The notes below the pieces were generated by a model. The model saw only the letters and a list, made by a program, of their open reading frames with translations. It did no database searches and had not been told where the DNA came from. A DNA stretch of 64,000 nt from Vreelandella populi (lineage in GTDB: Bacteria > Pseudomonadota > Gammaproteobacteria > Pseudomonadales > Halomonadaceae), in NCBI RefSeq assembly GCF_003989825.1, contig NZ_RZHE01000008.1, positions 1 through 64,000 on the forward strand, written 5' to 3'. Shown piece by piece: positions 2,002 to 21,323 of the stretch. Numbering within the stretch: the first letter of the stretch is position 1; every line of letters begins with the position of its first letter. The translations under genes were made by a program, and so were the position numbers.

Positions 2002-2015
2002 ATCAGCTCTCCTGA

Positions 2016-3116: not shown

Positions 3117-3133
3117 GAGTGTTCCTTGTGCCA

Positions 3134-4633: not shown

Positions 4634-4733
4634 CACGACATCCCAATTCTTATCGTTAAAAGTAAACGCACGGTCGGTAGGGCATGGCGTCAATCTGAGC
4701 TTTTTTTGTGTGCCTGTCTAGAGTGTGGTGCAA

Positions 4734-4859: not shown

Positions 4860-5636
4860 ATGACATTGCTCAGCGAAGAGAGGGTGGCAGGGCAGCGCAC
4901 GCCGGAAAATGTGGCGGCAAGGCTCGAGCGTTTGATCCTGGACGGTGTGTTTCGCCCCGGCCAGTTACTGCCTTCTGAAAGACGGTTATGCGAACGCCTC
5001 AAGGTATCGCGGGCCTCGCTGCGTGAGGGCTTAAGGATTTTACGCAGCAAGCAGATTATCGAAACCCGCCAAGGACATGGCTCAACTGTGGCGTCGCTTT
5101 TACCCATGCACCAGCAAAGCCCGTTGATGCACTTGTTCAACGACCATCCGCGCACCCTGTTTGATCTACTGGAGGTCCGGGCGCTGCTGGAAGGGGAGTC
5201 GGCGTTTCTGGCTGCCAGGCGGGGCACATCGATGGACCGCGTGCTGATTACCCGGCGCTACCGGGAAATGGCGGACTACGCGGAGCATTCAGAAAGCATT
5301 GATGTAGAGCGTCTGGCACGGCTGGATCACGCCTTTCATTTGGCGGTTTCCCAGGCCTCACACAATCCGGTGCTGGTTCACACACTACAGAGCCTGACCG
5401 ACCTGCTGTTAAGTTCGGTGTTTGCCTCCGTCAAGCACCTTTATCATCGCGAGGGCCCGCGCGAGATGATCAACCGTCAGCATGCCAGGCTTCATGATGC
5501 CGTTGTCGCAGGCGATGCCGAGCAGGCGCGCCATGTGGCGCTTGAACATCTCACCAGTATTACCGAGCTGTTGCGGGAACTAGAGGCAGAAAGCGAGCGC
5601 CTGGAGCGCTCTGCGATGCGTATGGAACCCTGGTAG
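4860..5636 (+). CDS. glcC: GlcC, FadR-family regulator of glycolate use
   Basis: A 258-residue GntR/FadR-type regulator. The winged helix spans about residues 15-80, with the recognition segment LPSERRLCERLKVSRASLRE and the wing TRQGHGSTV. A helical FCD ligand-binding domain follows. E. coli GlcC is about 254 residues and is likewise divergent from glcD. The known family role is glycolate-responsive control of glcDEFG. Two palindromes between the genes fit autoregulation plus operon control. The 3' end converges on the next regulator gene with only 5 bases between the stop codons. Confidence 0.92.
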   Translation: MTLLSEERVAGQRTPENVAARLERLILDGVFRPGQLLPSERRLCERLKVSRASLREGLRILRSKQIIETRQGHGSTVASLLPMHQQSPLMHLFNDHPRTLFDLLEVRALLEGESAFLAARRGTSMDRVLITRRYREMADYAEHSESIDVERLARLDHAFHLAVSQASHNPVLVHTLQSLTDLLLSSVFASVKHLYHREGPREMINRQHARLHDAVVAGDAEQARHVALEHLTSITELLRELEAESERLERSAMRMEPW

Positions 5637-5641
5637 TAAGC

Positions 5642-6334
5642 TTAAGCGTTAACAACGCTATGCTCTTCGTCAGGCGCGTCATCTTCGATCACCCCAGCTA
5701 ACGTCGCTACTTCAAGCTTATTGCACAGGTGGTCGCGCAGAATCTGGCCGAGCAGTTGGCTATCGCGCTTTTCCAAGGCGTTGATCATGTTTTCGTGATC
5801 CTTGACCGCCTGATCCCAGAACGCTTGGGTCATTTTTTTCGAGTAGCGCACGCGTTTTACGCGCTGGCTGAGATTGTTGTACATCTCCTGGAGTACCTCG
5901 TTTTGCGAGGCGGCCAGTATGCTTTCATGAATCTGCCGGTTGAGTTCGAAATACGCTTTTAAATCATGCTGGTGATAGTGATCAAGCATGCTGTTATGCA
6001 GCGTACGAATGGCGGCAATTTCTTTGTCGGTGATATGTTTACAGGCCAGCTCACCGGATAAACCTTCCAGCGCCGCCATAAGATCGTAAGTGTCCTTGAC
6101 CTTTTTAAAGGTTAGGCGAACCACCCGAGCGCCACGATTGGGCAGCAGCTCAATCAAACCTTCGGTCGCCAGCACCTTAAGAGCCTCTCTTAAGGGGGTG
6201 CGTGAAACGCCGAATTTTTCACACAGCTGTTTTTCTGAGATTCGCTCACCAGGCGACAGCTCGCCGTGTTCGATAAGATCGCCGATACGGTCGGCGACTT
6301 CGCGGTATAAGTTGCGCTGAAGTATCTTCGTCAT
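5642..6334 (-). CDS. GntR-family (FCD) transcriptional regulator of the adjacent catabolic cluster
   Basis: A 230-residue regulator with an N-terminal winged helix (residues 8-75; ISEKQLCEKFGVSRTPLREA) and an FCD domain. Acidic/His residues such as the DLMAALEG and HDLKAYFELNRQIHE segments fit the metal-containing effector pocket of this family. A good AAGGAAGGG ribosome site precedes the ATG. It is divergent from the HbpS-like gene and the TRAP/CoA-transferase operon. TGAATTCA palindromes at 6459, 7199 and 12283 lie before three successive transcription units and may be its operators. The effector is unknown. Confidence 0.85.
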   Translation of the reverse strand: MTKILQRNLYREVADRIGDLIEHGELSPGERISEKQLCEKFGVSRTPLREALKVLATEGLIELLPNRGARVVRLTFKKVKDTYDLMAALEGLSGELACKHITDKEIAAIRTLHNSMLDHYHQHDLKAYFELNRQIHESILAASQNEVLQEMYNNLSQRVKRVRYSKKMTQAFWDQAVKDHENMINALEKRDSQLLGQILRDHLCNKLEVATLAGVIEDDAPDEEHSVVNA

Positions 6335-6458
6335 GGTTCCCTTCCTTCTCGGTCATCCACCTGGCGATCCTACCAAGCTGTCCACTCTGCTAACGGAATG
6401 TAGCCAACTATTCGCTTGGTATAGTGGCGAGTCTGCGTATGATCTGCAAAAGTAATTA

Positions 6459-6466
6459 TGAATTCA
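6459..6466. promoter_or_regulatory. TGAATTCA palindrome, candidate operator A
   Basis: TGAATTCA lies in the 230-bp divergent region between the FCD regulator and the HbpS-like gene. The same octamer recurs upstream of the next two units of the cluster (7199 and 12283). This is a pattern seen in the sequence; the regulator assignment is inferred. Confidence 0.5.
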
Positions 6467-6564
6467 ATATTAACAGGCTTATTCAAAGCCTCGTGCCCAA
6501 GTGGTGATTCTTCTCCTAAAGCTAGGGGAATTTAGCAGTTAACAACGATAACAAGGAGCAAGCA

Positions 6565-7035
6565 ATGGCGAGTAACGTGTATCACGCGAAGGTAGTGCTT
6601 ACCCGAGCGCAAGCTAAAGCGATTCTGGAAGGGGCTACCGCCCAAGCGCGGGAGGCTGATCTTCCACCTTTAACCTTAGTTGTTCTGGATGGGGGCGGTC
6701 ATCTGGTCGCGGCGGAACGTGAGGATGGATGCGCGCCTTTACGTTTCCCCGTGGCTCAGGGAAAAGCCTATGCCGCTTTAGGTATTGGTATTGCAAGCGG
6801 TGTCGTGGGGGAGCGAAATAGCGAGCGCTCCGCCTTTCTGGCTAGCGTGGCCGCCGCTTCCCAAGGCCATTTTGTGCCGGTAGCGGGTGGCGTTCCTATC
6901 CTGGATAACGATAACTGCGTGATTGGCGCCGTGGGGGTAAGCGGGGCATCGTCCAATGAGGACCAGCAGGCAGCTATTGCCGGTATTGAGGCGGCCGGAC
7001 TCGTTTGGGGGCTTGAGCCCATTACTGATGAGTAG
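6565..7035 (+). CDS. GlcG/HbpS-family protein, cluster paralogue
   Basis: A 156-residue DUF336 (GlcG/HbpS) protein. It shares with GlcG a VVLDGGGHLVAAEREDG segment and a Gly-rich C-terminal core (GGVPILDNDNCVIGAVGVSG). It has a strong AAGGAG ribosome site, no signal peptide, and its own terminator at 7061, so it is probably monocistronic. Such genes often accompany operons for small hydroxyacid or aldehyde metabolism, but the biochemical function is not established. It is clearly distinct from the glc copy at 301-702. Confidence 0.82.
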   Translation: MASNVYHAKVVLTRAQAKAILEGATAQAREADLPPLTLVVLDGGGHLVAAEREDGCAPLRFPVAQGKAYAALGIGIASGVVGERNSERSAFLASVAAASQGHFVPVAGGVPILDNDNCVIGAVGVSGASSNEDQQAAIAGIEAAGLVWGLEPITDE

Positions 7036-7060
7036 TGAAAAATTCCGCCATCGTTTAACC

Positions 7061-7088
7061 AACAGCGCTTTCAAAAGCGCTGTTTTTT
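7061..7088 (+). terminator. Rho-independent terminator after the HbpS-like gene
   Basis: The stem AACAGCGCTT/AAGCGCTGTT (10 bp, 4-nt loop TCAA) runs directly into a T-rich tract. It separates the HbpS-like gene from the TRAP operon. Confidence 0.88.
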
Positions 7089-7338
7089 ATTTTTTAGAAG
7101 GTTTTTTCGCCTAGTGATCCTTGCGGATCGCTTAAAAATCAAGCTGCTGCAAAAGACCAGCGGCAGCCGATACGAAAGTTTAATACCTAATTTTGAATTT
7201 TGAATTCAAATTGAATGAGTGCACAGGAGCGGTGTTCGCGCTGCAGGGAAGCGACAACTTAATGAGCGTGCAAGGTTCGCCGGGCGTTGCCCCCGGTGGT
7301 GGCGATCCAACAACAATAAGTTCCTCTTGGAGTGCTCT
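7089..7338. other. Intergenic region before the TRAP operon
   Basis: About 250 bases without a supported gene. It holds the perfect 12-bp palindrome at 7199-7210 and must contain the promoter of the TRAP/CoA-transferase operon. A frame open from 7219 runs into the binding-protein gene but encodes Arg-rich sequence without family resemblance, so I treat it as leader. Confidence 0.55.
7199..7210. promoter_or_regulatory. TTTGAATTCAAA palindrome, candidate operator B
   Basis: A perfect 12-bp palindrome containing the same TGAATTCA core as 6459 and 12283. It is 129 bases upstream of the TRAP binding-protein start, in AT-rich DNA that is a plausible promoter. Confidence 0.55.
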
Positions 7339-8316
7339 ATGAAATTCCTCAAAACAACGCTTTTGACCATTGCGGTGGCTGTGGGTATTCAAGCTTCAGT
7401 CGCAAGTGCTAATACAGAGGTGCGTCTTGGTCATGTGGGTGGCCCAGGCTCGCTTTTTGAAATTACCGCCAACCGGTTTGCCGAACTTGCCAATGAACGC
7501 CTTGAAGGCGTGGCAGAAGTAAATGTGTATGGCAATAGCCAGCTAGGTGGCGATGAATCGATGATGCGTCGCTTAAGGCTTGGCTCGCTGGATCTTTCTA
7601 TCCCTTCTACGGTAATGAGCTCAGAGTCCAATCAGTTTGCTCTATTTGAAATGCCCTACCTGATTAAAGACCGTGAGCACATGAAGCGGGTTCGTGATGA
7701 AGTCGTTCGTGGGCCGCTTTATGAAGCAGCTGAGGCGCGCGGTTTCAAGATTATCGGCGTATGGGAAAACGGTTTCCGTCAGATCACCAATAACGTTCGT
7801 CCCATTGTTAAACCCGAAGATTTAAGTGGTATCAAACTGCGCACGCCAAGCGGCGTATGGCGTATTGAGATGTTTAGAAGCTACGGTGCCGCTCCTTCAC
7901 CAATGTCGCTTTCTGAAGTGTTCGTGGCCCTGCAAACCGGTGCAATGGATGGCCAGGAAAACCCCCTTATTCAGACCTACTCTTCACGGTTTCAGGAAGT
8001 TCAGGACTATCTCTCCTTATCCAATCACGTCTATACCCCGGCGTATCTGACCGCAGGGGCCAGCTGGAACCGCCTGCCCGAGGAAGTACGTACGGTACTC
8101 GAGGAAGTCGCCATGGAAATGGAAGACTTCGCCCTAGAAGAGGGGCTGCGCCTGGATGAAGAAACCTTGGCGAAAATGCGTGACGAAGGCATGGAAGTAA
8201 ATGAAGTCGACTTCGATGCCTTTGTTGAAGCCTCCCAGACCATTTATGACAAGTTTGCCGAAGAAGTCGATGGCGGTCAGGAATTAATCGATACGGTAGC
8301 CAGCCTGCGCGAATAA
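7339..8316 (+). CDS. dctP: TRAP transporter solute-binding protein (DctP family)
   Basis: A 325-residue periplasmic receptor. A Sec signal peptide (KFLKTTLLTIAVAVGIQASV, cleaved near SVASA) precedes a DctP domain. The family core is seen in IKLRTPSGVWRIEMFR, which contains the Arg that normally salt-bridges the carboxylate of the ligand, and in QTGAMDGQENPL. I chose the start by the GGAG ribosome site 7 bases before the ATG. The ligand is unknown but should be an organic acid. It leads an operon of transporter, CoA-dependent enzymes, aminotransferase and dehydrogenase. A stem-loop follows its stop. Confidence 0.92.
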   Translation: MKFLKTTLLTIAVAVGIQASVASANTEVRLGHVGGPGSLFEITANRFAELANERLEGVAEVNVYGNSQLGGDESMMRRLRLGSLDLSIPSTVMSSESNQFALFEMPYLIKDREHMKRVRDEVVRGPLYEAAEARGFKIIGVWENGFRQITNNVRPIVKPEDLSGIKLRTPSGVWRIEMFRSYGAAPSPMSLSEVFVALQTGAMDGQENPLIQTYSSRFQEVQDYLSLSNHVYTPAYLTAGASWNRLPEEVRTVLEEVAMEMEDFALEEGLRLDEETLAKMRDEGMEVNEVDFDAFVEASQTIYDKFAEEVDGGQELIDTVASLRE

Positions 8317-8336
8317 GCCCGGCAACGGTCTCTTCG

Positions 8337-8365
8337 AGGCGCATTGCCTGACGCAGGGTGCGCCT
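8337..8365 (+). other. Intercistronic stem-loop between dctP and dctQ
   Basis: An interrupted hairpin: AGGCGCA (8337-8343) pairs with TGCGCCT (8359-8365), with an inner CCTG/CAGG stem. No T tract follows, so it is not a classic terminator. It resembles the 3' stabilising hairpins that raise binding-protein mRNA over permease mRNA. Three similar elements occur at the same position in other operons here. Confidence 0.6.
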
Positions 8366-8384
8366 TATTGCTCTGGAGGTTTCA

Positions 8385-8945
8385 ATGAGTGCTTATACCA
8401 AGTTCAAGAACGCCTATTTCTCATTTCTTGAGGGGATTGTGGTGGTCTTGGTTATTGCCCTGGCAGGCGTTGTCACTATCGGGTTCGTTACGCGCTATCT
8501 CGGCTTCCCATTGAGCTGGTATGACGAGCTGGCGGCCGTGCTGCTGGCATGGGTGACGTACTACGGAACGGCCCTGGCGGCCGCAAGAGGGGCACATATT
8601 ACCTGCCCCAGCATATTGAATATGTGCCCGCCGTCGATTCGGGTGCCGATCGCATTGCTGGCAGAGGCCATCACCATCGGCTTTTTCGTATTTCTTGGCC
8701 TGGCCAGCTACCAGGTGATGCTGATTCTTGAAGGCGTCAATATGGTCAGCCTGCCGTCCATCTCCATGCAGCTTACCCAGTCGGCTATTCCCGTGGCTTC
8801 CGTACTGTTCATTATCGCTGAACTGCTGCGCTTACCCGATGTGCTGAAAAGCGCGCGTGGCAAAGGGTTTATCGATCATGAACTGGAAGAAGCCGGTATC
8901 GATGCCGAAGAAGTCGAAGCCGTCAGCACTCAACAGCGAGGGTAA
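8385..8945 (+). CDS. dctQ: TRAP transporter small permease subunit (DctQ family)
   Basis: A 186-residue inner-membrane protein with four hydrophobic segments (approx. residues 14-36, 48-66, 88-108, 130-152). It carries the DctQ-type WYDELAAVLLAWVTYYG motif in the second segment. The C-terminal tail is acidic. The start follows a GGAGG site at 8375-8379. It is the scaffold subunit that pairs with DctM. Confidence 0.9.
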   Translation: MSAYTKFKNAYFSFLEGIVVVLVIALAGVVTIGFVTRYLGFPLSWYDELAAVLLAWVTYYGTALAAARGAHITCPSILNMCPPSIRVPIALLAEAITIGFFVFLGLASYQVMLILEGVNMVSLPSISMQLTQSAIPVASVLFIIAELLRLPDVLKSARGKGFIDHELEEAGIDAEEVEAVSTQQRG

Positions 8946-8954
8946 GTAGCCAGC

Positions 8955-10238
8955 ATGACCATACTGTATATCTTCATCGCATTGATCGTGTTGATTATGA
9001 TCAATGTGCCGGTGGCGGTTGCCCTGGCGTTAGTCGGCACCATTGCCACCTTTATGACCTACGGCAGCATGGCAATGCCGACGGTTGGTATGACCATGTT
9101 CGAAGGGGCTACGAACTTTCCCTTGATCGCCATTCCACTGTTTATTCTGGCCGGCGCGATCATGAATGCCTCCAGTATCTCTCGGCGCTTGATCGATCTG
9201 GCCATGGCCATGGTCGGGTTTATCAAGGGTGGGCTTTCCATGGTGACGATTGGGGCCTCGGTGTTTTTCGCCGAAATCTCAGGGTCATCGGTGGCGGGTG
9301 TCTCGGCGATCGGGAGCATCCTGATTCCGGCCATGCGTAAAAAGGGCTACTCGAAAGAGTTTGCCGCTTCCATCTCTTCCTCCGCGGCTAGTCTGGCGAT
9401 CATTTTGCCACCTTCGATTCCCATGATCCTGTACGCGGTTATGTCCGGCGAGTCCGTGGTCCAGATGTTTGTGGCGGGTATTTTTCCGGGTCTTTTAGGC
9501 GCCATGGGGCTAGCCGCCATGTGCTACTACCTTGCCCGAAAATACAACTTTCCTTCTGAAGGGCGTTTTCAGGCATCTGTATTGTGGAAGGCCCTGAAGG
9601 AAGCGGTCTGGGCGCTGCTGATTCCGGTAATTATTCTGGGCGGTATCTTTGGCGGCTTTGTTACGGCAACTGAAGGCGCTGCATTGGCTGTCTGTGTAGC
9701 GATCTTTATCAGCGCGGTGGTGTATCGCGAGTTTACGATCAGAAATTTCATCGACTCGTGCAAAAGTGCGGGTGTGCAAACGGCGGTAGTAATGTTGCTG
9801 GTTGCGGCCTCTGCGGTGGTGGGCAGCTATCTTACCGAGACCCGCGTGCCCCAGGAAATCGCTATGCAGATCAGTGATCTGACGGATAATAAATACGTCA
9901 TTCTCGCCCTGCTCAACATCATCTTCCTCATTCTGGGTATCTTCCTGCACTCGGCAGCGGCCATCATTCTGGTCGTGCCTATCGTGCTGCCGCTTGTTCT
10001 GGAAGTGGGTATCGATCCGCTGCACTTTGGCTTGATTGTTACGCTGAACCTGGCGATTGGTCAGCAGACGCCGCCTGTGGCCAGCGTACTGATTGCCGCG
10101 TGCTCGATTGCCAAATCGGATATCTGGGCGACGTCCAAAACCAACCTGTGGTTTATCGCGGTGTTGTTCACGATCCTGATGATCAATACCTATATCCCCG
10201 CGTTTGCGCTGGCGCTGGTTAACTTTATCTACGGCTAA
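8955..10238 (+). CDS. dctM: TRAP transporter large permease subunit (DctM family)
   Basis: A 427-residue polytopic membrane protein with about twelve hydrophobic segments. Family motifs include FPLIAIPLFILAGAIMNASS near residue 55, the GSSVAGVSAIGSILIPAM loop near residue 110 and a TPPVASVL motif near the C-terminus. It forms the sodium-driven translocation channel with DctQ. It starts 9 bases after dctQ and is followed 11 bases later by the crotonase gene, so transport and catabolism are co-transcribed. Confidence 0.94.
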   Translation: MTILYIFIALIVLIMINVPVAVALALVGTIATFMTYGSMAMPTVGMTMFEGATNFPLIAIPLFILAGAIMNASSISRRLIDLAMAMVGFIKGGLSMVTIGASVFFAEISGSSVAGVSAIGSILIPAMRKKGYSKEFAASISSSAASLAIILPPSIPMILYAVMSGESVVQMFVAGIFPGLLGAMGLAAMCYYLARKYNFPSEGRFQASVLWKALKEAVWALLIPVIILGGIFGGFVTATEGAALAVCVAIFISAVVYREFTIRNFIDSCKSAGVQTAVVMLLVAASAVVGSYLTETRVPQEIAMQISDLTDNKYVILALLNIIFLILGIFLHSAAAIILVVPIVLPLVLEVGIDPLHFGLIVTLNLAIGQQTPPVASVLIAACSIAKSDIWATSKTNLWFIAVLFTILMINTYIPAFALALVNFIYG

Positions 10239-10249
10239 GGGAGTCATCT

Positions 10250-11056
10250 ATGAAAGATTCACATGATTCACCACTAACCGAAAGCGTGCAGTTTGCAATC
10301 CGCGACGGTGTTGCCTGGATCGGTTTTAATCGCCCACAAAGCCGCAATGCGATGACCTGGGAGATGTATAACGCCCTGGAGCACTACTGCGATGTTCTGG
10401 CGGGTGATGACGAAGTTCATGCCGTGGTGCTTCACGGAGTAGGCGGCGAGGCTTTCGTGGCGGGCACGGATATCACGCAGTTTGCCAACTTCTCAGAGCC
10501 TAACGATGCCATCGGCTATGAGCGACGAATCGATCAGGTGGTTGGCAAGCTTGAGCGCTTCCCCAAGCCGACCCTGGCACTCATTGAAGGTGCCTGTGTG
10601 GGCGGGGGTGCGGCGCTTGCTCTGGTATGCGATTTTCGCTACGCCACTTCGACCATGAAGTTTGGGGTGCCTATCGCTAAAACCCTGGGCAATACGCTTT
10701 CGATCAATAACGTATCGCGCCTGATCGACATGGTCGGTGTGGCCCGCACCAAGGAAGTGCTAATGATGGCGCGGCTGTTCGGTGCCGACGAGGCGCACGC
10801 AGCCGGGCTTGTGAACCACATCTTTGCTGCCGACACCATTTACGCTGACGTCGCCAAGCTCGCAGCAGACTTTGCCAAGCGGGCGCCGCTTACCTTGCAG
10901 GCCAGCAAAGCATTGATCAATCGAGCGCTTGAGCAGCGAAGGCTTGAAGCGGATGCCAGCGATGACTGGGTCACTACCTGCTATATGAGCCGCGACTTTG
11001 CCGCTGCCGTGGATAAGTTCGTCAATAAAACGTCGTTTGAGTGGACGGGCCGCTAA
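10250..11056 (+). CDS. Crotonase-superfamily protein lacking both canonical catalytic glutamates
   Basis: A 268-residue crotonase-fold protein annotated at family level as enoyl-CoA hydratase/isomerase. The CoA-binding/oxyanion-hole elements are present (AFVAGTDITQF and GACVGGGAALALVCDFRYA). The two Glu of classical hydratases are replaced: GGGxE reads GGGAA, and the FGxPE segment reads FGVPIAKTLGN. Simple enoyl-CoA hydration by the usual two-Glu mechanism is therefore unlikely. Lyase, isomerase, decarboxylase or thioesterase chemistry on an acyl-CoA is possible. It is coupled to the CaiB-type transferase (19-base gap), which would make its CoA substrate. Confidence 0.88.
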   Translation: MKDSHDSPLTESVQFAIRDGVAWIGFNRPQSRNAMTWEMYNALEHYCDVLAGDDEVHAVVLHGVGGEAFVAGTDITQFANFSEPNDAIGYERRIDQVVGKLERFPKPTLALIEGACVGGGAALALVCDFRYATSTMKFGVPIAKTLGNTLSINNVSRLIDMVGVARTKEVLMMARLFGADEAHAAGLVNHIFAADTIYADVAKLAADFAKRAPLTLQASKALINRALEQRRLEADASDDWVTTCYMSRDFAAAVDKFVNKTSFEWTGR

Positions 11057-11075
11057 ACAAGAAGGAGGAGGGCGC

Positions 11076-12263
11076 ATGCTTCCCTTACAGAATATAAAAG
11101 TACTGGACGTCTCCCAAATCATGGCGGGGCCTTACTGCACCATGGTGCTGGCCGATATGGGCGCTGAAGTCATCAAGGTCGAAAAGCTCAATGGCGGCGA
11201 TGATAGCCGTCAGATGGGGCCTTACGTTAATGGTGAGTCCACCTGCTTTTCCCAGATCAACCGCAACAAAAAAAGCATTTCACTCAACCTCAAAGACGAA
11301 CGGGCAAGGCAGATATTCTATCACCTGGCGAGTGATGCCGATGTCATCGTCGAGAACTACCGGCCAGGCGTTACTAAATCGCTGGCGATCGATTACGACA
11401 CCATCAAAGCCATCAACCCAGGGATCGTTTACTGCTCGATTTCAGGCTATGGCCAGACCGGCCCTTACAGCCATAAAGGCGGTTTTGATCTGGTGGCTCA
11501 AGGCATGACCGGGCTGATGTCGATGACCGGGGAAGAGGGCCGGCGCCCGCTGAAAACCGGGATTGCGGTTTACGATATCGGGGCGGGCATCACCGCGGTC
11601 TACTCAATACTCGCGGCGCATATTCATAAGATGACCACCGGTGAAGGCCAGCATATCGATATTGCGATTACCGAGTGTGGCTTGCCCTGGTTTACCTGGG
11701 AAGCGGCGGCATACTTTGCCGAAGGCACGGTGCCGGGCCCCACGGGATGGCGCCATCGGGTATCGGCACCCTATCAGGCGGTAAAAGCACGCGACGGCTA
11801 TTTGATGCTGGGCTGTGCCAACCAGCGCACCTGGGAGCGGTTTTGCCGTGACGTATTAAAGCGTGACGCCTTGATGGAAGACCCGCGCTTTATCACCAAC
11901 CACGACCGTGGCCAGCACGTTGATGAGCTGGAAGCGCTGCTCGAAGAGCTGATGGCCGAGGCAAGCGTGGAGGAGTGGTTAACGCTTTGCGATAGCGCGG
12001 GCGTGCCTGCCGGACCTATCAATAATTTCGCCGACGCCATGGCCGATGAGCACTATCTGGCACGCGGCATGGTGGAAGAGATGGAGCACCCGGTAATAGG
12101 AAAAATGAAAACCATCGGCTTTCCCAGCAAATTCTCTCTAACACCTTCGACAATACGTAGTGCGGCGCCGCTGTTTGCCCAGCATACCGATGAAGTGCTT
12201 GAAGGGTTGGGCTTTGCTAATGAAGAACTAAGCCACCTGCGGGCTGAAGGCTGCATCAAATAG
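11076..12263 (+). CDS. CaiB/BaiF-family (class III) CoA-transferase
   Basis: A 395-residue class III CoA-transferase. The start at MLPLQNIKVLDVSQIMAGPY follows a near-perfect AAGGAGGAGG site. The family nucleophile Asp is D138 in GGFDLVAQGMTGLM, matching the Asp that forms the acyl anhydride in formyl-CoA transferase. ENYRPG near residue 94 and AAHIHKMTTGEGQHID further on are also typical. It should move CoA between two carboxylic acids, presumably activating the acid imported by the upstream TRAP system. The exact acids cannot be read from the sequence. Confidence 0.92.
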   Translation: MLPLQNIKVLDVSQIMAGPYCTMVLADMGAEVIKVEKLNGGDDSRQMGPYVNGESTCFSQINRNKKSISLNLKDERARQIFYHLASDADVIVENYRPGVTKSLAIDYDTIKAINPGIVYCSISGYGQTGPYSHKGGFDLVAQGMTGLMSMTGEEGRRPLKTGIAVYDIGAGITAVYSILAAHIHKMTTGEGQHIDIAITECGLPWFTWEAAAYFAEGTVPGPTGWRHRVSAPYQAVKARDGYLMLGCANQRTWERFCRDVLKRDALMEDPRFITNHDRGQHVDELEALLEELMAEASVEEWLTLCDSAGVPAGPINNFADAMADEHYLARGMVEEMEHPVIGKMKTIGFPSKFSLTPSTIRSAAPLFAQHTDEVLEGLGFANEELSHLRAEGCIK

Positions 12264-12282
12264 ATTTTTTAAAGCCATTAAT

Positions 12283-12290
12283 TGAATTCA
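12283..12290. promoter_or_regulatory. TGAATTCA palindrome, candidate operator C
   Basis: A third copy of TGAATTCA, in the 77-base gap between the CoA-transferase and aminotransferase genes. It suggests an internal promoter controlled by the same regulator for the aminotransferase/dehydrogenase part of the cluster. Confidence 0.5.
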
Positions 12291-12340
12291 TTATCCATTT
12301 TTCAGGTTTTAATCGGCAACAATAACAAGAGGTAAACACC

Positions 12341-13558
12341 ATGCTGAAACTCGACTTTCACCCATCCGGCCGTCATTTCCTGCAGATCCCTGGCCCCTCA
12401 CCGGTGCCAGATCGCATATTGCGCGCGATGAGTCTACCCACCATTGACCACCGTGGGCCTGAATTTGGTGCCTTGGGATTAGAGCTATTGGCCAAGGTTA
12501 AAAAGGTCTTCAAAACAGAGCACCCGGTGATTATTTATCCGGCCTCGGGTACAGGCGCCTGGGAAGCGGCACTCGCTAACACCATGTCGCCGGGCGATCA
12601 GGTGCTGATGTTCGAGACCGGCCACTTTGCCACGCTTTGGCAGAAAATGGCGCTTCGCCTGAGCCTTGTGCCTGAGTTTATCGGCCTGCCGGGCTATGAG
12701 GGCTGGCGCCAAGGCGTTCAGGCCGACATGATTCAGGAACGCCTCAACAATGACCCCGAACACGCCATTAAAGCGGTGTGTGTGGTGCATAACGAAACCT
12801 CAACCGGGGTGACCAGTGATATTGCGGCGGTGCGTCGCGCCATCGATGCCACCGGGCACCCGGCGCTGTTAATCGTGGACACTATTTCCGGGCTTGCCAG
12901 CGCCGACTACCGCCATGATGAGTGGGGTGTGGATGTCACCGTATCCGGCTCCCAAAAGGGCCTGATGCTGCCGCCGGGGATTAGCTTTAACGCGCTTTCT
13001 CCCAAAGCGATCGAGGTTAGCCAGCACGCCAAACTCCCTAGAAGCTTCTGGGCGTGGGATGAGATTCTGGAAGCCAACCAGCGCGGCTACTGGCCTTATA
13101 CGCCCAGCACCAACCTGCTGTATGGGCTTAATGAAGCCCTCGACATGCTGCTCGATGAGGGCATTGACCATGTGCTGGCGCGTCATCAGCGCTGGGCTGC
13201 TGGCGTTCGCACGGCGGTCGAGGCCTGGGGGCTGGAAGTTCAGTGTCAGGACCCGGCGCTTTATTCCCCTGTACTCACGGGTGTCGTGATGCCTGAGGGA
13301 GTCGATGCCGATGAGATTCGCAAGATTATCTACGAGCGCTTTGATTTGTCGCTAGGCATGGGGCTGGGCAAGGCCAAGGGCAAGATGTTCCGCATCGGCC
13401 ACCTGGGCGATTGTAACGACCTTACCCTGATCGCCACGCTGGGCGGCTGTGAGGCCGGGATGAAGCTTGCAGGCGTCAACTTGCAGGGCAGTGGCGTCAC
13501 CGCCGCCTTGGACTACTTTGCCAACAACCCGCTTAGCACAGGCACTTCAGAGCGTTAA
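12341..13558 (+). CDS. Serine-glyoxylate-type aminotransferase (class V)
   Basis: A 405-residue PLP enzyme of the alanine/serine-glyoxylate aminotransferase group. The N-terminal motif QIPGPSPVPDRILRAM and the TIDHRGPEF segment are typical. Lys206 in SGSQKGLMLPPG is the Schiff-base lysine and Asp180 in LLIVDTISG the PLP-pyridine Asp. The most likely activity is serine + glyoxylate to hydroxypyruvate + glycine. Alternative amino donors (alanine, aspartate as in BhcA, or ureidoglycine as in PucG) cannot be excluded. It ends 16 bases before the FAD/Fe-S dehydrogenase gene. Glyoxylate can come from GlcDEF or AllA encoded nearby. Confidence 0.88.
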   Translation: MLKLDFHPSGRHFLQIPGPSPVPDRILRAMSLPTIDHRGPEFGALGLELLAKVKKVFKTEHPVIIYPASGTGAWEAALANTMSPGDQVLMFETGHFATLWQKMALRLSLVPEFIGLPGYEGWRQGVQADMIQERLNNDPEHAIKAVCVVHNETSTGVTSDIAAVRRAIDATGHPALLIVDTISGLASADYRHDEWGVDVTVSGSQKGLMLPPGISFNALSPKAIEVSQHAKLPRSFWAWDEILEANQRGYWPYTPSTNLLYGLNEALDMLLDEGIDHVLARHQRWAAGVRTAVEAWGLEVQCQDPALYSPVLTGVVMPEGVDADEIRKIIYERFDLSLGMGLGKAKGKMFRIGHLGDCNDLTLIATLGGCEAGMKLAGVNLQGSGVTAALDYFANNPLSTGTSER

Positions 13559-13574
13559 TGATGGGGAGAGTCAC

Positions 13575-16500
13575 ATGACATCACTGACGAAACAGCCCCA
13601 ATTTCGTGACGCCAGAATCAAACCCATCGGGGAGCTGGCGGCGCGCTTAAGCCGGGAAATGGTAGGCGACGTGCTGTTTGATCAGGCAACGCGGGGGCGC
13701 TACGCCACCGATGCCTCGATCTATCAGGTTACCCCGGTGGGCGTGGTGATTCCCCGCCACCAGGAGGATCTCAGGATCGCTCTGGATATCGCCCGTGATG
13801 CCCGTGTGCCGGTGCTGGCGCGCGGTGCGGGCACTAGCCAGTGCGGCCAGACGGTCGGTGAGGCGCTGGTCATCGACACCACGCGCTGGCTCAACCAGAT
13901 CGTCGAATTCGACGCTGACGCGCAGACGGTGGTGGTAGAGCCAGGCATGGTGCTTGATCACCTCAATGCCTGGCTCAAGCCTTACGGGCTCTGGTACCCG
14001 GTGGATGTTTCGACCAGCGCCCAGTGCACCATCGGCGGTATGGCTGGCAATAACTCCTGCGGGTCGCGCTCGATCTATTACGGCAATATGGTGCATAACG
14101 TAATGGGCATCGACGCGATACTCGCTGATGGCTTTGAAGCACGGTTTAGCTTTGTAGATAGCCTTGCCGAAGGCTCGCGGGAGCAGCAGCTCGCCCGGCA
14201 GGTCAAGGCGATTGCCGAGCGCGTCAGCCCTGAGATTCGTGAGCATTTTCCTAAAGTGCTGCGCCGTGTCGGGGGGTATAACCTGGATCTATTCGACTGC
14301 CAGAACCCCATACCTTATGACCCCGAGGGCCGGGTGAATCTAGCCCACCTGCTGATTGGCTCGGAAGGCACGCTTGGGGTAAGTAGCCGCATCAAGCTGC
14401 GGCTTTCCCCGTTACCCAGCCAAAAGGTGCTGGGCGTGGTGAATTTCCCAACCTTCTATCAGGCGATGGATTTAACCCAGCATATCGTCAGGCTCGGCCC
14501 CATGGCGGTCGAGCTGGTCGATAGAACCATGATCGAGCTTGCCCTTGAAAACCCGGCGTTTCGACCAGTGATCGAAAAAGCCCTGATCGGTAAACCTGAA
14601 GCCATTTTGCTGGTGGAGTTTGCAGGTCACGATCACGCTGAGCAACTGGCGGCGCTGAGCGCGCTTAACGAGCTGATGGGCGATTTGGGCCTGCCGGGCA
14701 GCGTGGTGAATATGCCCGAAGCGAAAGAGCAGAAAGCGCTTTGGGATGTGCGCAAGGCGGGGCTCAATATCATGATGAGCATGAAGGGCGACGGCAAGCC
14801 GGTCTCGTTTATTGAAGACTGCGCCGTGCCCCTTGAGCATCTGGCCGAGTACACCAACAAGCTTACCGAGGTGTTCAACCGCTACGGCACCGAAGGGACC
14901 TGGTATGCCCACGCCGGCGTCGGCACGCTGCACGTGCGGCCCATTCTGGACATGCGCCGCGATGGCGCTGAAAAAATGCGCGAGATAGCCGAGCTGGCTT
15001 CCTCGCTGGTGCGTGAATACAAAGGCGCTTACTCCGGTGAACACGGCGACGGCATCTGCCGTGGCGAGTGGGTCGCCTGGCAGTTTGGCGATACCCTTAA
15101 CAACGCCTTTCGCGAGATCAAGCAGCTGTTTGACCCGAATAACCTGCTCAACCCCGGCAAAATCGTCGATACCCCTAAAATGGATGACGAGCGCTATTTC
15201 CGGTTCCCCAAAACGTATCAGACGATTCCGCTGACCCCGGTGTTTGACTGGTCAGCCTGGAACGTAAAGCGCGACCCGTTAACCGGCGAGCAGACGTCAC
15301 CCGGCACCGCAGGCGATCCCACCCACGGGCTCGCCATGGCAGTCGAAATGTGCAACAACAACGGCCACTGCCGCAAGTTTGATGCGGGTACCATGTGCCC
15401 AAGTTTCCGAGCGACCAAAGATGAGCAGCATTTAACCCGGGGGCGGGCCAATACGCTGCGCCTGGTGCTTTCGGGCCAGCTCGGCGATGAGGGGCTTGCT
15501 AGCGACGCTGTTAAAGAAGCGCTCGACTTGTGCGTTTCCTGTAAAGGCTGTAAACGCGAATGCCCGACCGGCGTGGATATGGCCAAGTTCAAGATTGAAG
15601 CGCGGACCGCGCGCGCCAAAGCGAAAGGCCTGTCACTGCGTGATCGCATGGTAGGTGAGATGCCACGCTATGCGCCGTGGGCGAGCCGCTTTTCAGGGTT
15701 GATGGACTATGTGGAGCGCACACCACTTCTGGCTAACCGAATCAAAAAGACGCTCAATTTTGCTCCGGAGCGGGCGCTGCCTGCCTTCAAAGGCAACTTC
15801 CTGGCAGGCAATCAGAACACAAGCAGTAGCGAAGTCGCTGAGCGTGAGGTGCTGCTGTTTGTCGATACCTTCAATAATTATATGGAGGGCGACAACGCCA
15901 AAGCCGCTAAGCGCGTGCTGGAAGCCGCCGGGTATCGGGTTCACCTCAACGTCACCAAGGGCCAGCGGCCGCTGTGTTGCGGGCGTACCTACCTATCATC
16001 CGGCCAGTTCGAGAAAGCCAAGGCGGAAGCCCGGCGTACGCTTGATCACTTGATGCCGTTTGTCGATCGCGGCGTGGCGGTCGTGGGGCTTGAGCCATCG
16101 TGTCTTTTAAGCATGCGCGATGAGTTTCTGCAGTATGGGTTTGGTGAGCAAGCCCGAGCGCTCGCCGAATCGGCGTATTTATTTGAAGAGTTCCTGGTGA
16201 CTGCCCATGAGGCCGGTGAGCTGCCGCTGGCACTCAAGCATTCAGGCTATAAGCAGGCCCTGCTGCATGGCCATTGTCATCAAAAGGCCTTTGATGCGCT
16301 GCGCCCGGTCGAGCAGGTACTACGCTGGGTGCCGGGGCTTGAGGTCAAAACTATCGAGTCTTCCTGCTGCGGTATGGCGGGGAGTTTTGGCTATGAAGCC
16401 GAGCATTACCAAGCCTCGCTTAAAATGGCTGAGCTTTCGCTACTGCCGGCCATTCGTGAAGCTGAAGACGGCACTGTTCTGGTCGCCGACGGTACCAGCT

Positions 16501-16577
16501 GCCGCCACCAGATTAAGGATGGCAGCGGCCGAGAGGCCATTCATGTTGCCCGACTGCTGGAACAGGCGTTAGCCTAA
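13575..16577 (+). CDS. FAD/Fe-S D-2-hydroxyacid dehydrogenase (YdiJ/GlcD-GlcF fusion type)
   Basis: A 1000-residue respiratory dehydrogenase that fuses a GlcD-like FAD half (PVLARGAGTSQCGQTVGEAL near residue 77; GEHGDGICRGEW near 490) to a GlcF-like half. Fe-S cysteines lie in CNNNGHC (from Cys593) and CVSCKGCKRECP (from Cys653). CCG motifs follow (near residue 801, and SSCCGMAGSFGYE near the end). The architecture is that of E. coli YdiJ, a D-2-hydroxyglutarate dehydrogenase, and of some D-lactate dehydrogenases. I set the start at the ATG after GGGGAGAG; an upstream frame overlaps the aminotransferase gene. The in vivo substrate should be a D-2-hydroxyacid made or imported by this cluster. 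Confidence 0.9.
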   Translation: MTSLTKQPQFRDARIKPIGELAARLSREMVGDVLFDQATRGRYATDASIYQVTPVGVVIPRHQEDLRIALDIARDARVPVLARGAGTSQCGQTVGEALVIDTTRWLNQIVEFDADAQTVVVEPGMVLDHLNAWLKPYGLWYPVDVSTSAQCTIGGMAGNNSCGSRSIYYGNMVHNVMGIDAILADGFEARFSFVDSLAEGSREQQLARQVKAIAERVSPEIREHFPKVLRRVGGYNLDLFDCQNPIPYDPEGRVNLAHLLIGSEGTLGVSSRIKLRLSPLPSQKVLGVVNFPTFYQAMDLTQHIVRLGPMAVELVDRTMIELALENPAFRPVIEKALIGKPEAILLVEFAGHDHAEQLAALSALNELMGDLGLPGSVVNMPEAKEQKALWDVRKAGLNIMMSMKGDGKPVSFIEDCAVPLEHLAEYTNKLTEVFNRYGTEGTWYAHAGVGTLHVRPILDMRRDGAEKMREIAELASSLVREYKGAYSGEHGDGICRGEWVAWQFGDTLNNAFREIKQLFDPNNLLNPGKIVDTPKMDDERYFRFPKTYQTIPLTPVFDWSAWNVKRDPLTGEQTSPGTAGDPTHGLAMAVEMCNNNGHCRKFDAGTMCPSFRATKDEQHLTRGRANTLRLVLSGQLGDEGLASDAVKEALDLCVSCKGCKRECPTGVDMAKFKIEARTARAKAKGLSLRDRMVGEMPRYAPWASRFSGLMDYVERTPLLANRIKKTLNFAPERALPAFKGNFLAGNQNTSSSEVAEREVLLFVDTFNNYMEGDNAKAAKRVLEAAGYRVHLNVTKGQRPLCCGRTYLSSGQFEKAKAEARRTLDHLMPFVDRGVAVVGLEPSCLLSMRDEFLQYGFGEQARALAESAYLFEEFLVTAHEAGELPLALKHSGYKQALLHGHCHQKAFDALRPVEQVLRWVPGLEVKTIESSCCGMAGSFGYEAEHYQASLKMAELSLLPAIREAEDGTVLVADGTSCRHQIKDGSGREAIHVARLLEQALA

Positions 16578-16615
16578 CCGAGAAGGCTATCAACAATAAC
16601 GAACAGGAGAGTCAT

Positions 16616-17140
16616 GTGGCCATTTATCAATACGGAGAGCATCGGCCTGCGATACACGAAGACGTGTATGTCGCCGATACGGCGGATGTGATCGGACAAG
16701 TGACCTTAAAAGCGCGTTCAAGCGTCTGGTATCAGGCCGTTTTACGCGGCGATAGCGATCACCTGGAAATAGGTGAAGAAAGCAATATTCAGGATGGCGC
16801 GGTCCTGCATGCCGACCCCGGCTATCCGCTTAAAGTAGGCAATGGTGTCACGGTAGGCCACCAAGCCATGCTGCATGGCTGTACCGTGGGCGATGGTTGC
16901 CTGATCGGCATCCAGGCGGTGGTGCTCAATGGCGCGGTGATTGGTGAAAATAGCCTGGTAGGTGCAGGCGCGTTTATCAAAGAAGGGGCCGTATTCCCAC
17001 CCAACTCCCTGATTGTTGGCTCGCCCGCTCGGGTAGTGCGAGAACTCTCAGCGGATGCCGTAGAAGGCTTAAAGCTGAACGCACAAAGCTACGTTATCCG
17101 CGGTCAGCAGCACTCCAAGGAGTTAAAGCGAATAGATTAG
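16616..17140 (+). CDS. Gamma-carbonic-anhydrase-fold protein (YrdA/CaiE/PaaY family)
   Basis: A 174-residue left-handed beta-helix protein with hexapeptide repeats. The three metal-ligand histidines are in AVLHADPG and TVGHQAMLHG, the H-x(n)-H-x4-H pattern of the family. The start is GTG (reads as AIYQYGEHRP after Met), 6 bases after AGGAGA. PaaY hydrolyses dead-end CoA thioesters and CaiE sits with CaiB in the carnitine operon. Next to a CaiB-type transferase, a CoA-thioesterase or salvage role is therefore as plausible as carbonic anhydrase. It is the last gene before a strong terminator. Confidence 0.88.
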   Translation: MAIYQYGEHRPAIHEDVYVADTADVIGQVTLKARSSVWYQAVLRGDSDHLEIGEESNIQDGAVLHADPGYPLKVGNGVTVGHQAMLHGCTVGDGCLIGIQAVVLNGAVIGENSLVGAGAFIKEGAVFPPNSLIVGSPARVVRELSADAVEGLKLNAQSYVIRGQQHSKELKRID

Positions 17141-17219: not shown

Positions 17220-18911
17220 TTACATCAACGTGTCGGTAATACCAATCACATAAAAAGCTATTAACGCGATAATGCCGGTAAACACCAGATAGTAGATGGT
17301 CGGGATAATCGTTTTACGAATCGTCGCACCTTCACGGCCAAGCAAACCTACGGTTGCCGAGGCCGCGACCACGTTATGAATAGCGATCATATTACCTGCT
17401 GCCGCACCGACGGCCTGAAGCGCGACCATCATGGCTGTAGACAGCCCCAAGGTTTGAGCAACATTAAACTGGAACTCTGCCAGCATCAGGTTGGAAACCG
17501 TGTTGGAGCCGGCGATAAAGGCGCCCATGGCACCCACGGCCGGGGCAAAGAACGGGTAGATGTCGCCAACGCCGCTGGCCACGGCCTGGGCCATCATCAC
17601 CGGCATGGAGACAAGGTCTGCACCGTTGACGCCGGAGTTGATCAGAATGCGCACCATGGGCACGGTGAACACCAGCACGAAACCGGCGCCGAAAATCGTC
17701 TTGGTGGATTCCGACACTGCCGCGCTGATCTTCTGCGGGTTCATGCGATGCAGGAAGTAGGTAATGATAACGACGGCAATGATAATACCGCCGGGCAGGT
17801 ACAGCGGCTGAACACCACCGCTAACACCTGTTTCACCCAGAATATCGTTCCAGTTCAGGTTGATCGAGGTGAGCGCTACGCGCAGTGGTTCAATAGTACG
17901 TGAAGCGACCAGGAACAGGGCCAGCAACACATAAGGGATCCAGCCTTTCAGGGTCGACATGGGCGCCTTGCCGGCTACATCGTCCAGCTTGATTTGCAGG
18001 TTGCCGATCCACTCATCCGGCCATGAGGTTGACTCAGGAAAATCCCAGGTATCCTTGGGCAGCAAGAAGCCTTTACGCGCCGCAGGGACGACGATCGCCA
18101 GGCCGACCATGGCACCAATCATGGAAGGGAACTCAGGCCCCAATAGCACGCCTACCAGCATGTAGGGCACCACAAAACATACGCCGGTAAAGATGGCGAA
18201 CGGCGTAATCGACAGGCCCTCTTTCCAAGAGCGGTTCGCCCCAAAAAAGCGCACCATCATGACGACCAGTATCAAGGGCATCAGGATACCCACGATGCCG
18301 TGAGTAATAGCGACTTCGCTGGTGATCAATCGAAAAAATTCGTTCCAGGTCGAGCCATTGGCTTCAAGCTGAGCCGTAATGCCAGCGCGGTCCAGGCCGC
18401 TGCCCACCCCAACCACGATGGGCGTGCCCACAGCACCAAACGAAACGGGCGTTGATTGAATCATCATGCCCACGACAACCGCTGCCAGGGCAGGGAAACC
18501 CAGCGCAACCATCAAAGGGGCAGCTACCGCAGCAGGGGTACCAAAACCTGATGCACCTTCAATAAAACAGCCAAACAGCCAGGCCACAATCAGTGCCTGT
18601 ACCCGGCGGTCGGGGCTAATGCCCGAAAAACCGTTGCGAATGGCGGTAATACCGCCTGAGTGTTTAAGCGTATTGAGCAGTAATATCGCGCCGAAAATGA
18701 TCCATAAAAGCCCCGCTGTTTGGATGAGGCCCTGAATCGTGGAAGCTGCGATGCGGGTAAACGACATGTCCCAAGCGGTCAGACCAATAATGGCTGCCGT
18801 TAAAAAGACAATTGGCATGGCTATTTTGGCAGGTATTTTAAACCCAACGAGCAAAATACCTGCCAGCAGCAACGGCAGGAAAGCCAGAAGAGCTAGTGTT
18901 GTTTCGTTCAT
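17220..18911 (-). CDS. lldP: L-lactate/glycolate permease (LctP family; LldP/GlcA type)
   Basis: A 563-residue inner-membrane protein with 12 or more hydrophobic segments. LctP signatures include [20 protein letters not shown] near residue 115 and [15 protein letters not shown] near residue 465. The family imports L-/D-lactate and glycolate with protons or cations. A TGGTCTTACCA site 120 bases upstream is identical to one of the two glcD/glcC operators, so I infer membership of the GlcC regulon and a glycolate (GlcA-like) role. The gene is monocistronic. Lactate as the main substrate remains possible. Confidence 0.93.
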
Positions 18912-21212: not shown

Positions 21213-21247
21213 GATGATTCCTTAACTGACAGGTTAATAGGCTAATC

Positions 21248-21257
21248 ATGTATACAA
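21248..21257. promoter_or_regulatory. TTGTATACAA-like operator between uraD and uraH
   Basis: ATGTATACAA, with an exact TGTATACA core, lies midway in the 111-base divergent uraD/uraH region. The same palindrome occurs three times between hpxA and puuE. The adjacent GntR regulator (21701) is the likely binder. Confidence 0.6.
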
Positions 21258-21323
21258 TATTAAAGGCATAAAGGTAATCTAGACCTGCCTACTTTAATTA
21301 TTCATTAGCAGCAAGGAGCCGCT

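Follow-up and report, generated by a model that had tools for sequence, protein, structure and literature searches.

A gene cluster in a 64-kb stretch of the genome of the salt-loving bacterium Vreelandella populi (contig NZ_RZHE01000008.1, positions 1 to 64,000; hereafter, the window) encodes a tripartite ATP-independent periplasmic (TRAP) importer (DctPQM), a crotonase, a family III (CaiB-type) coenzyme A (CoA)-transferase (hereafter, CaiB), a class V aminotransferase (AT), a YdiJ-type dehydrogenase and a protein of the gamma-carbonic anhydrase (gamma-CA) type, with an HbpS-like gene and a divergent GntR/FCD-family regulator gene at its head. The cluster is almost certainly one regulon, and its enzymes likely carry out glyoxylate/glycine chemistry. 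We suggest, with a probability of roughly 0.4, that this regulon imports a tartrate-type diacid and breaks it down through two branches. The assignment of the substrate to the 2,3-dihydroxy-diacids is equally tentative, and tartrate itself as the substrate, together with its retro-aldol cleavage, is doubtful. The gene set, the operator-like sites, the co-occurrence of the genes, the module structure and the loss of the hydratase glutamates from the crotonase are computationally well supported.

All genes named in the first-pass annotation, which was made from the sequence alone, were located where it had placed them, from the HbpS-like gene to the gamma-CA gene on the + strand with the FCD regulator divergent at the head, and their families were confirmed using the list of open reading frames (ORFs) and the Pfam and NCBIfam profiles (Table 1). 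Some gene starts were chosen inside longer ORFs; given these starts, the intergenic gaps from DctP through gamma-CA were 9-77 bases. Only DctP, DctM and the crotonase scored over a curated NCBIfam cut-off, all via subfamily models. CaiB, AT, YdiJ and gamma-CA each scored under the cut-off of the nearest equivalog, and therefore the profiles assigned no function to them.

Table 1. Features of the cluster and its flanks in the 64-kb window (bit scores are followed by the model cut-off where two values are given).
Feature	Position	Strand	Evidence and remarks
GntR/FCD-family regulator	5642..6334	-	divergent; Pfam FCD + GntR; just outside the first-pass coordinates
Operator-like palindrome 1	6455..6470		core TGAATTCA at 6459-6466; between GntR and HbpS
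HbpS/GlcG-like protein	6565..7035	+	PF03928; weak match to PRK09732, 54.6 bits vs 246
Operator-like palindrome 2	7197..7212		upstream of DctP
DctP, TRAP solute-binding protein	7339..8316	+	PF03480; TIGR00787 over cut-off
DctQ, TRAP small permease	8358..8945	+	PF04290
DctM, TRAP large permease	8955..10238	+	PF06808; TIGR00786 over cut-off
Atypical crotonase	10250..11056	+	PF00378; NCBIfam subfamily PRK06144 over cut-off; Ala122/Ile142 at the catalytic Glu positions
Family III (CaiB-type) CoA-transferase	11076..12263	+	PF02515, 431.7 bits; nearest model succinate-glutarate CoA-transferase, below cut-off
Operator-like palindrome 3	12279..12294		upstream of AT
Class V aminotransferase (AT), BhcA / serine-glyoxylate aminotransferase type	12341..13558	+	pyridoxal phosphate Lys206; BhcA 450 bits vs 650
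YdiJ-type FAD + 4Fe-4S D-2-hydroxyacid dehydrogenase	13572..16577	+	GlcD-like part fused to GlcF/GlpC-like part; 510 bits vs 1350
gamma-CA/PaaY/CaiE-type hexapeptide protein	16616..17140	+	PF00132; 186 bits vs 250
glcG, glcF, glcE, glcD glycolate-oxidase-type genes	301-4693	-	flanking; associated, not core
GlcC-type regulator	4860-5636	+	flanking; associated, not core
Lactate/glycolate-permease-type gene	17220..18911	-	flanking, not core; named by look of sequence

To examine the linkage of these genes, we surveyed 201 genomes of the Halomonadaceae (hereafter, the family). Both AT and the crotonase were present in 69 genomes, AT alone in none, the crotonase alone in 10 and neither in 122 (Fisher p = 2e-43 across the 201 genomes, ignoring kinship). 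We compared 60 AT stretches of the family, namely 58 primary loci of the 69 AT-bearing genomes and two second copies (L081 and L082 in our numbering of stretches); the remaining 11 of the 69 primary loci, that of V. populi among them, lay outside this set of long stretches. YdiJ adjoined AT in all 58 primary loci. The 60 stretches contained crotonase and CaiB in 46 cases, a match to DctM in 48, to gamma-CA in 34 and to GntR in 57, and glcD with at least 60% identity in 40. Where the AT locus was without crotonase and CaiB (the Salinicola type, L066 and L084), the crotonase was found elsewhere in the genome. Genes around YdiJ and gamma-CA in the relatives were identified by marker searches; the family set overlaps with the genome-contig set, and neither was thinned. 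The cluster genes are linked far beyond chance, and the comparison of neighborhoods that the first-pass annotation had proposed as a check bore out their conserved linkage.

Palindromes with the core TGNATNCA precede HbpS, DctPQM-crotonase-CaiB and AT-YdiJ. They were found by a motif search of 161 GntR upstream regions, in which TGAATTCA lay inside ATTATGAATTCATAAT-like palindromes; the first-pass finding had begun at 6459, where the core TGAATTCA of palindrome 1 starts. In the family, 39 of 42 GntR/HbpS regions contained a site scoring at least 13/16 and all 42 one scoring at least 12/16, as compared with a mean best score of 9.2 and a largest score of 13 (of 16) in shuffled regions. The HbpS-DctP, CaiB-AT and other gene gaps played no part in the motif discovery and were used as a test. 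TGNATNCA was present in 36/43 HbpS-DctP gaps of relatives (41/43 scored at least 12/16, vs 0.01 of shuffles) and in 43/43 CaiB-AT gaps (27/43, vs 0.06 of shuffles). Seven other gap types pooled had TGNATNCA in 2/232, and none scored 12 or more: DctP-DctQ 2/48, DctM-crotonase 0/41, crotonase-CaiB 0/46, AT-YdiJ 0/56, YdiJ-gamma-CA 0/20, YdiJ-threonine aldolase 0/16 and DctM-AT 0/5. Note that these control gaps were mostly shorter (median 40-106 bases vs 303 for HbpS-DctP and 84 for CaiB-AT), and that the counts come from related, hence non-independent, genomes. The window contained only three TGAATTCA, one per palindrome (1.06 expected), and palindrome 1 was the sole exact match to WTTWTGNATNCAWWAW in the V. 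populi genome. Because the predicted palindromes precede HbpS, DctP and AT, the cluster probably comprises three transcription units (HbpS; DctPQM-crotonase-CaiB; AT-YdiJ-gamma-CA) under one regulator, and the GntR/FCD protein is the probable regulator. The common operator-like sites and the conserved co-occurrence together uphold the first-pass view of one catabolic system.

Among sampled genomes of the phylum, the AT clade was found in 46/398 and the crotonase in 34/349. Of the AT-bearing genomes from outside the family, 42 in number, 35 were searched for YdiJ; 30 of the 35 possessed exactly one YdiJ-type gene, which lay at most 6 kb from AT in 29. AT and YdiJ form a module of their own, which other classes of the phylum also have and which is combined with a variety of importers: TRAP, TctCBA or MFS outside the family, a bile acid:sodium-symporter-family gene at the Acidiphilium AT locus, and SSS in the Salinicola-type genomes. 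Crotonase and CaiB accompanied AT in just 7/39 stretches outside the family and were absent from the same stretch in 32/39; the modules are therefore separable. The crotonase was in turn accompanied by CaiB in 22/34 crotonase stretches outside the family and in 73/80 of the genome-contig set. The lineages in which the crotonase module occurred with AT include Limimaricola (L214), Acidiphilium (L213), Marinobacter (L122), Pseudomonas/Stutzerimonas (L123, L124, L126-L130) and Acidobacteria (L156, L166); in other lineages AT was absent from the same stretch. Both modules, CoA and amino, are found repeatedly across proteobacteria, as is the operator-like site, and the modules recur in Acidobacteria as well. 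Crotonase-CaiB-TctCBA-PdxA operons had a related upstream palindrome in 6/7 cases (at least 12/16).

Variants of the arrangement were also observed. In Salinicola-type genomes (L068, L069, L071, L074-L080; Salinicola L136, L137, L139-L141, L145), the cluster is split into HbpS/GntR-TRAP-crotonase-CaiB and GntR/AT-YdiJ-SSS, each with its own GntR paralogue; in some genomes the halves are separated by about 12 kb, whereas in others the distance is about 40 kb or they lie on different contigs. Acidobacteria L149, L152 and L155 carry YdiJ, crotonase and CaiB without AT, and all three have a gene of the class I aminotransferase family. Two broad types of DctPQM fill the same slot of the cluster, with DctP at least about 80% or about 55-70% identical to that of the window.

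We next consider the individual proteins. The crotonase fold was confirmed by PF00378 and a confident structure model (mean pLDDT 95; TM score 0.87-0.92 to crotonases such as 3pea and 6n92), and the closest solved relatives are ordinary crotonases; the fold search matched many crotonases and singled out no reaction. Alignment with 5zai and 7eum placed Ala122 and Ile142 at the positions of the two catalytic glutamates of hydratases (residues 144 and 164 in the rat numbering). Neither position was acidic in any of 170 aligned crotonases, i.e., the window protein and 169 homologues (more than 33% identity, 100 bits, 231-319 residues; near-identical copies were not thinned), in which Y90, E91, T145, N148 and S151 were invariant or nearly so. 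Because both positions are non-acidic in 170/170, hydration or dehydration by the usual crotonase mechanism is unlikely. Accordingly, we rejected a plain hydratase or AcuK-like role, and the analogy with AcuK and CaiD drawn in the first-pass annotation is not supported. The crotonase probably has a chemistry other than the annotated one, judging from these residues. Enolate chemistry is possible by analogy, e.g., decarboxylation as in methylmalonyl-CoA decarboxylase or retro-aldol cleavage as in feruloyl-CoA hydratase/lyase.

Passages of one article state that bicarbonate stands in for the missing carboxylate in type I MenB crotonases and that its authors knew, in 2013, of no other bicarbonate-using crotonase (PMC3637252). 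In the window crotonase, too, the fold is kept and the usual carboxylate base is missing, and here a gamma-CA homologue is linked, whereas the motifs and the substrate differ from those of MenB. The idea of a bicarbonate-dependent crotonase, suggested by this analogy and the linked gamma-CA gene, is worth testing, no more. The gamma-CA-type protein of the window contains His65, His82 and His87, candidates for the three His ligands of a gamma-carbonic anhydrase, and its gene adjoined crotonase and CaiB also in stretches without AT (L132, L135, L138, L142, L143, L144 and L256).

CaiB qualifies as a family III CoA-transferase by PF02515 and by the catalytic Asp, which was present in 145/145 aligned sequences; the CoA-transferase step proposed earlier is therefore supported. 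Its nearest models act on dicarboxylates or oxalate and include succinyl-CoA transferases for C5 diacids. AT scored 449.7 bits against the BhcA model NF045640. It was 43% identical to the annotated BhcA of L216, and both have a DHR motif, unlike the DYR of 6pk1; this comparison of active sites with BhcA and 6pk1 did not fix the substrate. PucG/ureidoglycine aminotransferase was tried as the family of AT and rejected (135.5 bits vs 371.6 for the serine-glyoxylate aminotransferase 6pk1). YdiJ scored 510.5 bits against the D-2-hydroxyglutarate dehydrogenase model NF049975. The transporter is of the TRAP DctP type, with DctP, DctQ and DctM all present. DctP keeps the Arg/Arg/Asn carboxylate triad (GFR..KLRT..DGQENP; by eye on alignments), which passages of PMC11668362 describe as the carboxylate-binding triad of TRAP binding proteins. 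The proposal that an acid is imported is supported, and the nearest solved structures are too distant to tell the substrate of DctP.

The tartrate reading draws on neighboring genes in relatives, which suggest a beta-hydroxy amino acid intermediate, a C4 hydroxy-diacid and a link to glycolate/glyoxylate. A low-specificity L-threonine aldolase gene lay at most 200 bases from YdiJ in 18/60 family stretches (in L120, 432.7 bits vs a cut-off of 312) and near AT in 2/39 stretches outside the family. A BhcC-like aldolase, which has another fold, was found within the cluster of L212 (361 bits vs 690) and L262. The presence of two unrelated aldolases for beta-hydroxy-alpha-amino acids argues for an amino acid of this type as a product or substrate of AT. 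Further, genes of the beta-hydroxyaspartate cycle lay beside AT in L216 (annotated) and L081 (matches). The glyoxylate/glycine chemistry of the first-pass annotation is supported. Next to the CoA module, tartrate dehydrogenase adjoined the crotonase gene in two Caballeronia stretches, L222 and L294 (annotated), and in L240 of another class. In the acidobacterial stretches L150, L160, L169 and L170, where crotonase and CaiB form a pair, its neighbor was CaiB; TIGR02089 was over cut-off in L222 and L169. In L222, glcFED lay beside tartrate dehydrogenase-crotonase, together with glcC, otnK and an aldolase gene. L142 carried a D-erythronate dehydrogenase gene (430 bits vs 325) near gamma-CA/crotonase-CaiB and a PdxA-like gene, and a PdxA-like gene also occurred in seven GntR/crotonase-CaiB-TctCBA stretches. 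A MatC-type dicarboxylate carrier was found in L152, an oxalate/formate-type MFS in L156, and amidases at L066, L084, L156 and L166. The V. populi genome possesses malate synthase G and, on another contig (C12), tartrate dehydrogenase. No BhcC was over cut-off in this genome (best 84 bits vs 690). Nor was glyoxylate carboligase over cut-off there, and we rejected that enzyme as the glyoxylate sink.

Several other observations were made at these loci. In the family member L081, the second AT copy (60% identical) lies with TctCBA-type genes and a YdiJ gene (51%), and the same locus has a BhcA-like gene, a BhcB-like dehydratase gene and a short BhcC-like stretch; by its gene content, it appears to be a beta-hydroxyaspartate cycle joined to the cluster system. 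Acidobacterial L152 also has an acetamidase/formamidase-type gene. A succinate-semialdehyde-dehydrogenase-type aldehyde dehydrogenase gene and a tartronate-semialdehyde-reductase-type gene lie near the crotonase in L132, L133, L134, L142, L146, L256 and L294.

From these clues we infer the substrate, the order of the steps and the crotonase reaction, and with them whatever roles the HbpS-like and gamma-CA proteins have. The GntR-controlled regulon would import a short dicarboxylic acid with a 2-hydroxy group, the likeliest candidate being a C4 2,3-dihydroxy-diacid of the tartrate type, and would degrade it via two branches to glyoxylate, glycine and glycolate. In the amino branch, YdiJ would oxidize the (R)-2-hydroxy group to give a 2-oxo-3-hydroxy-diacid (tartrate to oxaloglycolate), and AT, in the reverse of a BhcA-like reaction with glycine as the donor, would convert it to 3-hydroxyaspartate, a beta-hydroxy-alpha-amino acid. 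A threonine-type aldolase (LtaE-like or BhcC-like, encoded at the locus in some relatives) would then release glycine and glyoxylate. In sum, one oxidized diacid would give two glyoxylate, with glycine acting catalytically. In the CoA branch, CaiB would load CoA onto the diacid to form tartryl-CoA, and the crotonase without Glu would act on this thioester, perhaps by a retro-aldol cleavage to glyoxylate and glycolyl-CoA. Glycolate freed by CoA transfer would pass to the neighboring glycolate oxidase GlcDEF. In its most detailed form (tartryl-CoA made by CaiB, a retro-aldol crotonase using bicarbonate from gamma-CA as the base, and a parallel route via oxaloglycolate and 3-hydroxyaspartate), the scheme is rather improbable. 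If the two-branch reading is true, one C4 acid would feed the glycolate/glyoxylate pool from two sides.

A number of results weigh against this reading, the separability of the modules outside the family among them. Tartrate dehydrogenase was found in 0/60 family and 0/39 outside AT stretches and is therefore tied to the crotonase, not to AT; even so, it accompanied just 1/34 crotonase loci outside the family and 4/80 in the genome-contig set. Further, TIGR02089 enzymes can also use D-malate. Any aldolase was found by YdiJ in 18/60 family stretches and near AT in 3/39 outside, no more. glcD was present in 0/39 AT stretches outside the family. No YdiJ of this type was found in 5/35 of the AT genomes searched outside the family, and in one it was on another contig. 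The acidobacterial loci have crotonase and CaiB on opposite strands. AT also occurs among amidase, FAH-type, Asp/Glu-racemase-type, hydantoinase or purine genes (L211, L215, L218 and L270; the racemase-type gene of L211 matched the arylmalonate decarboxylase Pfam), contexts for which the tartrate reading gives no explanation.

The palindrome evidence has counterweights as well. Nine of 100 shuffles of the window also reached three TGAATTCA, and a reversed control of WTTWTGNATNCAWWAW gave two genome matches vs one; therefore, the genome-wide pattern search carries no evidential weight by itself. A match of at least 12/16 was found in 0/7 GntR/YdiJ regions and 12/21 GntR/AT regions outside the family, 2/3 GntR/AT regions at crotonase loci outside the family, and 1/10 Salinicola-type GntR/AT regions. 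In variants without a crotonase between DctM and AT, 0/5 DctM-AT gaps had an operator match. Moreover, TGNATNCA-like sites may be common to several FCD regulators, which makes the palindrome evidence from outside the family weaker.

We weighed six other explanations. The first-pass annotation had placed AT and YdiJ at the end of a linear pathway, in which CaiB activates the acid, the crotonase rearranges or cleaves it, and YdiJ and AT take the products (a D-2-hydroxy acid and glyoxylate). In its favor, AT is never without the crotonase within the family (69/69), the crotonase is alone in 10 genomes and all units have operator-like sites in common. Against it, AT and YdiJ are a separate module outside the family, in 32/39 stretches without crotonase and CaiB, and therefore do not have to form the last part of a linear pathway through CoA thioesters. 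AT at such loci often has its own importer, and therefore AT and YdiJ can probably take the imported acid directly; Salinicola-type genomes have one GntR per module. We regard the linear pathway as unlikely, and the imported acid itself is a likelier identity for the D-2-hydroxyacid than a product of the CoA pathway. A sugar acid of C4 or shorter (erythronate, threonate or 2,3-dihydroxybutyrate) is a rather unlikely substrate. YdiJ and AT would convert it to 4-hydroxythreonine or threonine, threonine aldolase would form glycine and glycolaldehyde or acetaldehyde, and glycolate oxidase would act last. TctCBA and MatC carriers, which usually transport di- or tricarboxylates, stand at some loci, the models closest to CaiB describe enzymes for dicarboxylates or oxalate, and aldehyde-dehydrogenase matches were found at 0/60 family and 2/39 outside AT loci. 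On the other hand, LtaE is over cut-off at the locus of a relative, L142 has erythronate dehydrogenase near the crotonase, and L222 has otnK and an aldolase. Further, in the passages of PMC11668362 that describe a set of TRAP binding proteins, these largely bound pantoate or erythronate, and that set overlaps the structure matches of DctP (4P47, 4PFR, 7BBR, 4N8Y, 4X8R and 4NN3).

With D-malate or a malate-type acid, YdiJ would give oxaloacetate, AT would act on aspartate/glyoxylate, and CaiB and the crotonase would turn malyl-CoA into acetyl-CoA and glyoxylate. BhcA as the nearest equivalog of AT, the DHR motif common with BhcA of L216 and the C5-diacid models nearest to CaiB would agree with this, whereas the two non-homologous aldolases would be left unexplained and D-malate makes a CoA step unnecessary; we consider it distinctly unlikely. 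The adjoining glycolate-oxidase operon, the likeness of YdiJ to a GlcD-GlcF fusion and the HbpS/GlcG-like partner could point to glycolate/glyoxylate housekeeping, with YdiJ as a one-chain glycolate/D-lactate dehydrogenase, AT converting glyoxylate to glycine, and CaiB and the crotonase as passengers. This is quite improbable: GlcDEF is already next door, crotonase and CaiB share the operator-like sites of the cluster, and AT in the family never occurs without the crotonase. CoA-transferase, crotonase and a gamma-CA-type protein are also the trio of caiB-caiD-caiE, and gamma-CA accompanies crotonase and CaiB even where AT is absent. A racemization of that type, in which dehydration and rehydration of a CoA thioester by CaiB and the crotonase would invert a hydroxyl center and gamma-CA would act as CaiE, is very unlikely, both hydration glutamates being absent from 170/170. 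Finally, the amidase, hydantoinase, racemase-type and purine contexts of AT (L211, L215, L218 and L270) and the uraD-like gene (by look) at 20670 in the window would suit a ureido or amide substrate that arises when purines or pyrimidines are degraded, with AT as a ureidoglycine- or oxaloacid-glyoxylate aminotransferase. The much weaker match of AT to PucG than to serine-glyoxylate aminotransferase, amidase matches in 2/60 family stretches and none among the ten cluster genes scanned make this highly unlikely.

The cluster, apparently an acid-catabolic regulon, brings known families together in a new combination. As the first-pass annotation had remarked, no known pathway matches the full gene set: our literature search found no characterized cluster and no paper with this set, although it was weak on subscription journals and so does not prove the set unpublished. 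Nor did we find a known substrate for the AT clade or the crotonase. The cluster has in common with the beta-hydroxyaspartate cycle (BhcABCD, Paracoccus denitrificans type) a BhcA-related AT and the proposed glyoxylate/glycine/3-hydroxyaspartate chemistry, and genes of that cycle lie beside AT and YdiJ in two relatives, as described above. It differs in the addition of YdiJ, CaiB, crotonase and TRAP and in the low BhcA score of AT. Further, BhcB, BhcC and BhcD were not found among the ten cluster genes; genome-wide, BhcC alone was searched. A family III CoA-transferase and a crotonase occur together also in caiB-caiD-caiE (carnitine) and AcuN/AcuK (acrylate/3-hydroxypropionate), of which only the former includes a gamma-CA-type protein. 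AcuK and CaiD are hydratase/dehydratase-type crotonases, whereas the window crotonase is without the catalytic Glu and its partners are AT, YdiJ, TRAP and aldolases. The window CaiB had a weak match to the L-carnitine CoA-transferase model (129 bits vs 413). An AcuN/AcuK pathway is expected to have the acryloyl-CoA reductase AcuI or 3-hydroxypropionate genes alongside; none were found among the ten scanned genes or, by look, in the flanking ORFs, the rest of the genome not being searched. The tartrate dehydrogenase (TtuC, TIGR02089) that lies beside crotonase or CaiB relatives in Caballeronia, L240 and Acidobacteria is absent from the window locus. The window YdiJ has the fused FAD + Fe-S architecture of the D-2-hydroxyglutarate dehydrogenase YdiJ and differs in its low score and its tie to AT.

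With three predicted operators, one binding protein and a crotonase without the usual catalytic groups, the cluster is tractable. A positive outcome would reveal a further catabolic path leading to glyoxylate and glycine as well as a novel crotonase reaction. It would also put right names given by family, such as enoyl-CoA hydratase, formyl-CoA transferase, serine-glyoxylate aminotransferase or D-2-hydroxyglutarate dehydrogenase.

The flanking glc genes were named by similarity to annotated glcF, glcE, glcD and glcC of Caballeronia L222, and the HbpS-like protein (6565-7035) is here also labeled GlcG-like. The permease-type gene at 17220-18911 has a downstream match in most of the 60 family AT stretches. 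Further downstream, a small ORF at 20152-20577 looks phasin-like from its sequence, and the uraD-like gene lies at 20670-21212. Near the latter, TGTATACA-type palindromes were found at 21245-21260, 26311-26326 and 26474-26489, and these are perhaps operators of another FCD regulator beside purine-type genes.

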